NCBI RefSeq assembly: GCF_022606355.1
Contig: NZ_JAHHZQ010000001.1
Location: forward strand, 1,054,001-1,118,000
Length of the DNA: 64,000 nucleotides
Reading direction: 5' to 3'
Source of the DNA: Leifsonia shinshuensis
GTDB lineage: Bacteria; Actinomycetota; Actinomycetes; Actinomycetales; Microbacteriaceae
Below, one piece after another: positions 7,896-10,772 of the stretch. Both the position numbers and the translations under genes were made by a program. The stretch's first letter is position 1. Every line of letters starts with the position of its first letter. The notes under the pieces were generated by a model. The model was not told the DNA's origin, searched no databases, and saw only the letters and a list, made by a program, of their open reading frames with translations.

Positions 7896-8768
7896 TCAGG
7901 CCGCGCTGGCGGCCTCCCGCGCCTCGGCCAGTCCGGTGGCCAGCGGCGTGGTCGGGCGCCCGATGAGCTCGCTCAGCGTGCCGGTCACCTCGGCGAGCGC
8001 GCCGTCGCGGATGTTGCCGTCGAGGGCGACGACGAAGCCGGCCGTCCCCTCGTCGAGGCCCGCCTCGCGCAGGGCCGCCGCGTGCTCCTCCGGCGTCACC
8101 GACCGGTAGCCGACGGGTCGACCGAGCAGCTCGCCGATCACCGTGGCGAGGTCGTCGAACGTCCAGGCGACGTCGCCGCCCAGCTCGTAGACGGCGCCCT
8201 CGTGCCCGTCCGTGGTGAGAACGACGGCCGCCGCCTCCGCGTAATCCTTGCGGGAGGCGGAGGCCACCCGTCCGGCGGCGGCGCTGCCGACGAGCTCCCC
8301 CGTGGCCGCCGCGGTGTCGACCTGGCCGGTGTAGTTCTCGGTGTACCAGTTGTTGCGCAGCACCGTCACCGGGAGGCCGGAGGCCGCCAGCAGGCGCTCG
8401 GTCTCGGCGTGCTCTGGCGCGAGGATCAGGTCGGTGTCGGTCGCGCGCGGTGCGCTCGTGTAGACGATCCGGCCGACGTTCGAGCGCGCCGCCGCCTCGA
8501 TGGCGTTGCGGTGCTGCGGGATGCGCTGGCCGACCTCCGAGCCGGACACCAGGAGGAGGGCGTCCGCGTCGGCGAAAGCCGCGTCGAGGGTCTCCGGGCG
8601 CTCGAAGTCGATGACGGCTGTCTGCACGCCGAGGGCGGCGAGGGGTGCCAGGCGCTCGGCGCTGCGCCCGGCGGCGCGGATCTCGGCGGCGGGCACGCCG
8701 CGCTCGAGGAGCGAGTCGACGGTGAGGCGGCCCAGGTGTCCGGTTGCTCCGGTGACGACGATGGTCAT
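7896..8768 (-). CDS. NmrA/QorB-like NAD(P)H-binding reductase
   Basis: This 290-residue atypical short-chain dehydrogenase has an N-terminal TGATGHLG nucleotide-binding loop (residues 6-13). It lacks the YxxxK catalytic pair at the usual place and has the NNWYTENY and ASRKDYAEAAAVVL features of the QorB (quinone oxidoreductase 2) group. QorB enzymes reduce quinones with NADPH and are often controlled by HxlR-type regulators. Here the gene is divergent from an HxlR-PP2C fusion with 95 bp between the starts, so control by that neighbour is likely. The quinone substrate is inferred from the family. Confidence 0.85.
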   Translation of the reverse strand: MTIVVTGATGHLGRLTVDSLLERGVPAAEIRAAGRSAERLAPLAALGVQTAVIDFERPETLDAAFADADALLLVSGSEVGQRIPQHRNAIEAAARSNVGRIVYTSAPRATDTDLILAPEHAETERLLAASGLPVTVLRNNWYTENYTGQVDTAAATGELVGSAAAGRVASASRKDYAEAAAVVLTTDGHEGAVYELGGDVAWTFDDLATVIGELLGRPVGYRSVTPEEHAAALREAGLDEGTAGFVVALDGNIRDGALAEVTGTLSELIGRPTTPLATGLAEAREAASAA

Positions 8769-8842
8769 GGGGGTGGTTCCTTTCGTTCGGTCCTCCTTCG
8801 CAACCGCTGGGAAGGCGCCATACTTCCCTGTCGGAGGTACCC

Positions 8843-8856
8843 ACTTTTCGGTAAGT
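8843..8856. promoter_or_regulatory. Candidate HxlR operator
   Basis: ACTT-TTCGGT-AAGT is a palindrome just upstream of the HxlR-PP2C start (GTG 8864), within the divergent promoter region. HxlR-family regulators commonly bind short ACTT/AAGT-type palindromes. The assignment rests on position and symmetry only. Confidence 0.35.
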
Positions 8857-8863
8857 TACTGAC

Positions 8864-10057
8864 GTGGACACCAGATTCCCGTCATTCGAGGCCCTCGGCT
8901 TCACGGACGGCGTGCTCCCGTCGGAGTGCCCGTCGCGCATCGTGCTCAACCACGTCACGAGCACCTGGGGCGTTCTCGTGCTCGTCGCCCTCGCCCGCAG
9001 CGACCTCCGCTGGGGCGAACTGCGACGGACAGTGCAGGGCATCAGTGAGAAGATGCTCGCGCAGACCCTGCGCACCCTCGAGCGGGACGGCTTCGTGCTG
9101 CGCACCGCGCAGCCCACCGTCCCGCCGCGCGTCGACTACAGCCTGACCGGCCGGGGCAGGGAGGTCACCGCGCACCTGCTCCCGCTCATGCAGTGGATCG
9201 CGGGCAACGCCGACGACATCCTCACCGGCGTCCCGCCCGCACCGCCCGCTCCCCTCGGCTTCGAGACGGGTCAGGCCTCGATCAGCGGCGACTACCGGGA
9301 CGGCAACGAGGACTCCCTGTACGCGTCCTCCTGGTCGGCGTTCGTCGCCGACGGTGTCGGCGGCCACGCCGCGGGCGAGGTGGCGTCGGCCACCGTCGCG
9401 ATCCGGCTGGCGTCGATGCTGGACGCGACGGAGGGCCGTCTCCCCGGTGAGGACCGTCTCCGCGAGCTCGTCGCGATCGCCAACGCCGACCTCGCGCTGC
9501 GGGTGCGGATGGACTCCACGCTCGCGGGGATGGCGACGACGCTCGTCGGCCTGTTCTCCGGCGGCGAGCAGGTGCTCGTCGCCCACACCGGCGACTCACG
9601 CGCCTACCGCCTTCGCGACGGCAGCCTGGCGCAGGTCACGGAGGACGACTCACTGGTGCGCGAGCTGCTGGCGTCCGGCGCGATCGTCGAGGCGGAGGTC
9701 GCCGATCATCCGCTGCGCTCGGTCGTGACCCACGTGCTGGGCGGCGACCCCGAGGACGCCGCCGCGCTGCACGTGTCAGCGGAACCGCTCCGGCGCGGCG
9801 ACCGCTGGCTGCTGGCGAGCGACGGTCTCACCGACTACGTGCCCGTCGCGGAGGTCGCAGAGACGTTGGATGCGGCGGCCGGCCCGCAGGACGCCGCGGA
9901 CGCCCTCGTCGCGCTGGCGTTGCGCTACAGCGCCCGCGACAACGTGTCGGTGGTGGTCGCCGATGTCGTCGAACTCACCGACCCGCCCGCGTATCACCCG
10001 GCGTTCGGCGGGTCGGCCGCCGCCGATCCGGCGTCGTCCCGCACGCTGGAGGTCTGA
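8864..10057 (+). CDS. HxlR-type regulator fused to a PP2C phosphatase
   Basis: One uninterrupted 397-residue frame holds two complete domains. Residues 20-115 form an HxlR winged helix with the family Cys at position 22 (ECPSRIVLNHV), LRWGELRRTVQGISEKML as the recognition region and VDYSLTGRGRE as the wing. After a Pro-rich linker (123-131), residues 135-370 form a PPM phosphatase: RDGNEDSL, VADGVGGH (D163), GMATTLVG, HTGDSRAYRL, LLASDGLTDY (D320) and ARDNVSVVVADV (D359). All metal-binding Asp residues seem present, so activity is expected. HxlR proteins sense quinones or electrophiles through Cys; PP2C enzymes remove Ser/Thr phosphates, usually opposing Hanks kinases. No kinase gene is nearby. 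No Shine-Dalgarno sequence precedes the GTG, so the mRNA may be leaderless. Confidence 0.88.
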   Translation: MDTRFPSFEALGFTDGVLPSECPSRIVLNHVTSTWGVLVLVALARSDLRWGELRRTVQGISEKMLAQTLRTLERDGFVLRTAQPTVPPRVDYSLTGRGREVTAHLLPLMQWIAGNADDILTGVPPAPPAPLGFETGQASISGDYRDGNEDSLYASSWSAFVADGVGGHAAGEVASATVAIRLASMLDATEGRLPGEDRLRELVAIANADLALRVRMDSTLAGMATTLVGLFSGGEQVLVAHTGDSRAYRLRDGSLAQVTEDDSLVRELLASGAIVEAEVADHPLRSVVTHVLGGDPEDAAALHVSAEPLRRGDRWLLASDGLTDYVPVAEVAETLDAAAGPQDAADALVALALRYSARDNVSVVVADVVELTDPPAYHPAFGGSAAADPASSRTLEV

Positions 10058-10127: not shown

Positions 10128-10772
10128 TCAGGGCGCGGGCGTTCGTGCTTCGAGGGCCGGGCTGCCCACCAGGAGCGCCCACCCGTACTGCGCGCCCGCG
10201 ACGAGGTGGCCGGCCGCCCCGAGCGCGAGCAGCACGCCGGCCGTCACGGTGAGCGGTGGCGAGTCGAGCGCGGGCGGGGCGGCGAGGATCAGCAGCGGGA
10301 ACCCGGTCAGCAGCAACGCCGTGCGGAGTTTGCCGATCCGGGTCGGCCGGAGGATGCGGCCGGCCTGCGGGCGGATCAGGACGAGGCAGCCCAAGACCAG
10401 CTCGGGCGTCACCAGCACCCCTGCGAACCACCACGGCACGAGCCCGAACGCTGCGCAGCTGACGACGATGACGATCACGCCGACCCGGTCGAACAACGGG
10501 TCGAGGCACTGGCCCAGCCGCGACACCAGGCCGAGTCGCCTGGCGAGGTAGCCGTCGACCCAATCGCTCAGCCCGATGACCGCCAGGGTGACGAGCGCCC
10601 ACCCGTACGAGTCGACGGCGAGCAGGACGACGAAGACGGGCAGCAGGAGGCCGCGGACGTAGGTCACCAGGTTCGGGAGCAGGAACCACTGGTCGCGGAA
10701 CCCCGACAACAGCCGCCCGGCCGTTCCACCCGGGTCCGACCCCCGATTGACGTTGATCCCCCGACGACGCAT
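10128..10772 (-). CDS. CDP-alcohol phosphatidyltransferase family protein
   Basis: The 214-residue integral membrane enzyme carries the full family motif DWVDGYLARRLGLVSRLGQC followed by LDPLFD, which supplies the metal- and CDP-binding Asp residues of the D-x2-DG-x2-AR-x8-G-x3-D-x3-D pattern. Five or six membrane helices can be seen. Such enzymes transfer a phosphatidyl group from CDP-diacylglycerol to glycerol phosphate, inositol phosphate or a related alcohol. The acceptor cannot be told from the sequence; similarity to the PgsA/Cls-like actinobacterial set is likely. It stands between convergent and codirectional neighbours with no clear operon. Confidence 0.88.
   Translation of the reverse strand: MRRRGINVNRGSDPGGTAGRLLSGFRDQWFLLPNLVTYVRGLLLPVFVVLLAVDSYGWALVTLAVIGLSDWVDGYLARRLGLVSRLGQCLDPLFDRVGVIVIVVSCAAFGLVPWWFAGVLVTPELVLGCLVLIRPQAGRILRPTRIGKLRTALLLTGFPLLILAAPPALDSPPLTVTAGVLLALGAAGHLVAGAQYGWALLVGSPALEARTPAP

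Follow-up and report, generated by a model that had tools for sequence, protein, structure and literature searches.

Redox-responsive transcriptional regulators of the HxlR/DUF24 family include YtfH and its relatives YodB, HypR, and QorR, and those of the YtfH/QorR type are single-domain proteins of about 100–150 aa. The phosphatase PstP lies in the pknA/pknB cluster. To our knowledge, the sensing of electrophiles by a repressor and the dephosphorylation of Ser/Thr are as a rule tasks of different proteins. The genes qorB and ytfH are divergent (accessible text of PMC3946193), and the family's N-terminal cysteine is reactive towards electrophiles or oxidants (accessible text of PMC7835342). 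HxlR-REC-HalX and REC combined with a PP2C-type domain are separate architectures in the sections available of PMC5847659, which, to judge from those sections, is the sole paper found in the open-licence PMC literature to contain both HxlR and PP2C; the joining of PP2C to kinases has been described (excerpt of PMC9239204). No description of an HxlR-PP2C fusion was found in the open-licence PMC literature, and an earlier, sequence-only reading of the present locus likewise knew of none. One source annotates protein P0003 as 'serine/threonine protein phosphatase PrpC/DNA-binding HxlR family transcriptional regulator', so the architecture is already present in automatic annotation.

Such a fusion is encoded in the window, the 64,000-nt stretch of Leifsonia shinshuensis DNA analyzed here. 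The hxlR-pp2C gene (8864..10057, plus strand) has a GTG start and a frame of 397 aa without an internal stop. Its HxlR winged-helix domain occupies residues 31–116 (8954..9211, plus strand; Pfam PF01638, E 1.3e-23, 83.1 bits against a cut-off of 20.8), and the HxlR fold assigned to the N-terminal half rests on sequence matches of this kind. The protein is a variant rather than a plain HxlR/DUF24 member, because at 397 aa it carries a second domain. Cys22, encoded just ahead of the HxlR domain (8927–8929, plus strand), is the sole cysteine of the window's fusion protein and of all 11 fused proteins compared, and each of 15 fused protein clusters likewise has a single cysteine (residue 22; 23 in P0013). 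It is conserved at all 24 Leifsonia loci, so that the N-terminal cysteine typical of HxlR/DUF24 proteins, to which the sequence-only reading had drawn attention, is present throughout.

A Pro/Ala-rich linker (residues 119–134; 9218..9265, plus strand), variable in length in an alignment of 11 proteins and modelled as a loop at about residues 122–130, leads into a PP2C/PPM phosphatase domain (residues 135–370; 9266..9973, plus strand) in which the PP2C fold is present. Pfam detects PP2C_2 (PF13672) at residues 154–326 (E 1.3e-8) and PP2C (PF00481), with its best match at 316–361 (E 4.4e-8). The motifs GNED (D150), ADGVGG (D163), SDGL (D320), and RDN (D359), whose aspartates we take to be the metal-binding residues, are complete in the window's protein and kept in all 11 fused genomes; among the 15 clusters, P0011 lacks an exact ADGVGG and P0004 an exact SDGL[TS]D. 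With both Pfam domains and all four Asp motifs in one open frame, the HxlR protein joined to a full PP2C that had been proposed at the outset is substantiated. The NCBIfam model Stp1_PP2C matches at E 5.4e-51 with a score of 173.3, below its curated cut-off of 230, and the domain is therefore classed as a PP2C and not as an Stp1 equivalog. The C-terminal tail (residues 371–397; 9974..10054, plus strand) carries a conserved FGGSAA.DPAS motif; its FGGSAA is found in all 11 fused genomes, an FGGSAA-like tail occurs in the stand-alone Leifsonia-type PP2Cs P0026–P0032, and residues 371–390 are modelled at pLDDT 85–90. Weaker G[SA]A forms of the tail are seen in Cellulomonas and Microbacterium relatives. 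A cysteine, Cys205, is common to the stand-alone Leifsonia-type PP2Cs P0026, P0027, P0029, and P0031, and the fused PP2C part is free of cysteine. The window's genome holds three further PP2C matches at 39–40%, one of which may be PstP.

On the opposite strand lies a gene for a QorB-like, NmrA-type NAD(P)H-binding reductase of 290 aa (7896..8768, minus strand; Pfam NAD_binding_10/NmrA), the start codons of the two genes being separated by 95 bp. The best solved relative of the reductase is E. coli YtfG (PDB 2zcu, 219.5 bits); this match, the Pfam assignment, and the 45% identity to E. coli QorB (see below) bear out the divergent QorB-like partner that had been recognized from the sequence. A footprint over the 24 Leifsonia loci delimits a conserved operator-like element of 23 bp, GTACCCACTTTTCGGTAAGTTAC (8837..8859, plus strand), between the genes, an arrangement that agrees with the HxlR/DUF24 regulators of the YtfH/QorR type. 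The ACTT-N6-AAGT palindrome at 8843–8856 singled out by the sequence-only reading sits inside this longer element, GTACCCACYTT-N3/4-RGTAAGNTAC. The strict palindrome is found at 22 of the 24 loci, with one base off in the other two (G001 and G022), and the element is conserved at fused and unfused Leifsonia loci alike. Beyond these 24, a further 25 HxlR loci from outside the genus were compared, 23 of them with an adjoining NmrA gene. The longer element occurs at 20 of those 23 (18 of 21 distinct loci, two pairs having identical upstream sequences, with a pattern composed after the sequences had been viewed), and 2 of the 23 have the exact palindrome; the longer element is absent from both outside loci without NmrA, and no PP2C was found at any of the 25. 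The palindrome is thus operator-like and conserved within Leifsonia, while outside the genus it is the longer element that is kept. The 14-base core, ACTTTTYGGTAAGT, has one genomic site at zero or one mismatch and another at two mismatches, compared with 8 sites at up to two mismatches for the reversed word used as a control; since the core is exact just once in the genome, the target of the element looks local. Its conservation makes the stretch at 8837–8859 a putative operator. Only 4 bp separate the end of the element from the GTG of the fusion gene, a TAAGTT box is found 6 bp ahead of that GTG, and no clear Shine-Dalgarno sequence precedes it; this combination suggests that the message is leaderless and autorepressed.

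The fused frame is open end to end in 11 of 28 Leifsonia genomes, and a protein search recovered 15 clusters of fused length with both parts (for one of them, P0011, the precomputed Pfam list gives HxlR alone). The 17 non-fused genomes comprise 12 with HxlR only, beside the same NmrA gene and as a stand-alone protein of 121–139 aa, one decayed fusion (G003), in which the frame ends after 150 codons with PP2C-like remnants on either side of the stop, and four (G005, G018, G026, and G027) with no close HxlR orthologue among the genus matches. HxlR and NmrA adjoin at all 24 Leifsonia loci (11 fused, 12 HxlR-only, and G003), and at 20 of them fba and ispH flank the pair. The pair is intact and away from the fba-ispH neighbourhood in G019, G021, G008, and G009 (loci L074, L075, L078, and L079). 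Behind HxlR at the 13 non-fused loci, PP2C remnants were detected only in G003 and no separate PP2C gene was found within about 2.3 kb; related PP2Cs are encoded elsewhere in the genomes of G004 and G009. The stand-alone PP2C of G005 and G004 adjoins genes for an aldo-keto reductase and an MCGRF-type (SRAP-like) protein, as named by eye.

In a sample of 398 genomes of the family (E 1e-68) no fusion was found outside Leifsonia, the matches being four fused proteins, all from Leifsonia, and the stand-alone PP2C of G004; in a sample of 396 genomes of the phylum (E 1e-62) only the window's fusion matched. A search with residues 1–122 among proteins of similar length returned 19 matches, 15 from the fusion family and 4 without a listed PP2C; its reach is confined to relatives that have short words in common with this HxlR, and unrelated HxlR-PP2C fusions may exist beyond it. 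Relatives of P0033 gave 10 matches in 149 genomes of the order. Recurrence of the fusion with the same divergent partner in other Microbacteriaceae had been put forward as a check; it is found within Leifsonia and not elsewhere in the sampled family. No kinase is present among the recognized neighbours glpX, fba, the reductase, a CDP-alcohol transferase, ispH, and xseA (Pfam covered four window proteins including the fusion; glpX, ispH, and xseA were named by eye). The CDP-alcohol phosphatidyltransferase gene, cardiolipin-synthase-like, lies at 10128–10772 between the fusion gene and ispH; it is also found at this place in G010 (70%), and no copy was detected at the corresponding place of the sister genome G016.

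In a tree of 38 PP2C rows, the 19 fused PP2Cs, 11 taken from the genomes and 8 from the 15 clusters, come together in a single group with values of 94/93, a little short of the tool's star, next to the stand-alone Leifsonia-type PP2Cs of G004, G005, G009, and P0026–P0032; the branches of G014 and P0014 fall outside the rest of the fused rows. A four-gene species tree of 28 rows requires a minimum of three changes to account for the fused state, the count being three for three gains, four for one gain with three losses, and three for one gain with two transfers. Forcing the fused and decayed rows of the HxlR tree into one clade lowers the log-likelihood by 18 (p-AU 0.069). A single fusion event, followed by losses or transfers, fits best, and it is preferred because the fused PP2Cs group together, not because of the change count; three separate fusions would each require a PP2C drawn from one and the same PP2C line. 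Thereafter, either three lineages shed the PP2C part (the sister group of G014, G025, and G002) or the fused gene was transferred between lineages. Any such losses were clean, since no remnant is detectable apart from that in G003. The fusion is a derived trait, because HxlR is a normal stand-alone gene where PP2C is missing, and PP2C is an add-on to an older local repressor-reductase pair, given that other genera have the HxlR/QorB pair together with its element and no PP2C beside them. The novelty of the locus is its PP2C; the repressor-reductase switch is older.

Median dN/dS values (NG86, 55 pairs of the 11 fused genes) are 0.112 for HxlR, 0.357 for the linker, and 0.195 for PP2C, with 0.173 for the tail (50 pairs with finite dS) and 0.101 for the HxlR of the 12 unfused genomes (66 pairs). 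The HxlR and PP2C domains are both under purifying selection and, with the metal motifs kept in 11 of 11 genomes, neither half is a relic. The linker alignment has a three-residue gap in G020 and a one-residue gap in G014. The model places about nine linker residues between the helix at 96–121 and the first PP2C strand, with residues 121–130 at pLDDT 82 (one monomer model, dimer arrangement lying beyond its reach), and the domains may sit close together, since the linker is short and modelled with fair confidence. No ATG, GTG, or TTG start codon in the linker is conserved across the 11 fused genes, and PP2C is therefore most probably translated as one protein with the repressor. A conserved internal start for PP2C was considered and rejected: the sole nearby start codon in all 11 is ATG109, which encodes a Met of the HxlR helix and is preceded by a pyrimidine-rich sequence. 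Possible linker starts of restricted occurrence are the GTG at codon 129 in G001 and G012, and a GTG is present at codon 137 in G020.

The explanation we prefer, to which we give about an even chance, is that a YtfH/QorR-type autoregulated repressor was once joined in frame to a PstP-like PP2C, so that the amount of phosphatase follows derepression by electrophiles. The HxlR part would repress the divergent qorB-like gene and its own gene, a dimer probably binding the 23-bp element, and the PstP-like PP2C gene would have been joined to the HxlR C-terminus once in the history of Leifsonia. Modification of Cys22 by quinones or other electrophiles, as predicted from the family, would release the repressor. 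With the phosphatase most likely made in one chain with the repressor, electrophile stress would lift phosphatase and reductase together, the former as a putatively active dimeric enzyme, perhaps also enriched at its own operator. We infer here the DNA binding, redox sensing, phosphatase activity, and induction of the fusion. The benefit of the fusion may be slight or special, since it was detected in a single genus, in which 12 genomes with HxlR/NmrA lack it.

The sequence-only reading had itself named separate genes in homologs as the mark of an artefact; the rival considered here is an artefact of frameshift, assembly, or gene calling, with two genes in reality. Public records P0016, P0017, and P0025 do hold the PP2C half alone as a separate protein, but they lie on contigs of the same lengths as G000:C1, G010:C1, and G014:C1, where the frame extends upstream, and their first residues fall on codons other than ATG, GTG, and TTG (ATC in the window). 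The fused frame recurs in 11 separately assembled genomes (the TAG in G012 is the gene's own stop, closing a frame of 394 codons) and its domains are constrained, so that an artefact is rejected at the sequence level and we consider it extremely improbable. Records P0018–P0024 resemble the PP2C-half records and may hide more fusions from architecture databases.

The two halves of the fusion could, as the sequence-only reading supposed, form a one-protein switch, in which the redox or DNA-bound state of HxlR gates the phosphatase or the state of PP2C gates DNA binding. The single cysteine gives any thiol signal one entry point, both domains are constrained, and the short linker may let them pack together; on the other hand, linker sequence and length vary at the highest dN/dS of the protein, HxlR is equally constrained without PP2C, and genomes without PP2C retain HxlR, the operator-like element, and the reductase, which makes this switch rather unlikely. 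A more specific proposal, a redox-to-phosphorylation converter in which the repressor's cysteine sets where or how fast PP2C dephosphorylates Hanks-kinase substrates, is doubtful, and equally so is its route, by which changed dimer geometry or release from the operator would tie quinone stress directly to Ser/Thr phosphosignalling. It is also conceivable, with no better prospects than the switch, that HxlR acquired a PP2C gene in frame at its end and that both parts work as before, the join having no role. The PP2C part begins at the stand-alone start-codon position of P0026 and P0029 (MFGF vs PLGF, aligned by eye), the varying ends of unfused HxlR imply a C-terminus that tolerates extension, and 12 genomes have no PP2C at the locus; set against this are the purifying selection on both domains and the fact that PP2C at the locus is fused, decayed (G003), or absent, and never a separate gene in the roughly 2.3 kb behind HxlR at the 13 non-fused loci. 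Linker variability and unchanged HxlR constraint favour loose tethering, with direct gating a possibility.

A stable fusion and its natural HxlR-only relatives at one locus provide a comparison of the switch with and without an enzyme tail, and offer a direct way of testing for a link between redox sensing and Hanks-type phosphosignalling in bacteria. Bacillus subtilis HxlR, a formaldehyde sensor, belongs to the same domain family and its N-terminal Cys aligns with Cys22, whereas its Cys-x-Lys pair for the formaldehyde crosslink (Cys11 and Lys13; accessible text of PMC7835342) is replaced here by Cys22-Pro-Ser. PstP/Stp1 share the PP2C fold and metal motifs with the fusion, in which the PP2C is instead joined to a DNA-binding domain, scores below the NCBIfam Stp1 cut-off, and has fba, the reductase, and ispH as neighbours. 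The E. coli qorB/ytfH pair has the same divergent layout, its genes being 88 bp apart as against 95 bp here. The likeness of the two spacers is not above that of shuffles (426 of 5000 mononucleotide shuffles scored as high) and their best alignment fell outside the element, so no operator shared with E. coli is claimed. E. coli QorB is 45% identical to the reductase (124/275) and YtfH 51% identical to residues 16–119 of the fusion (53/104), both regulators having an N-terminal cysteine; YtfH, at 126 aa, ends after the winged helix, whereas the Leifsonia protein continues into a phosphatase.
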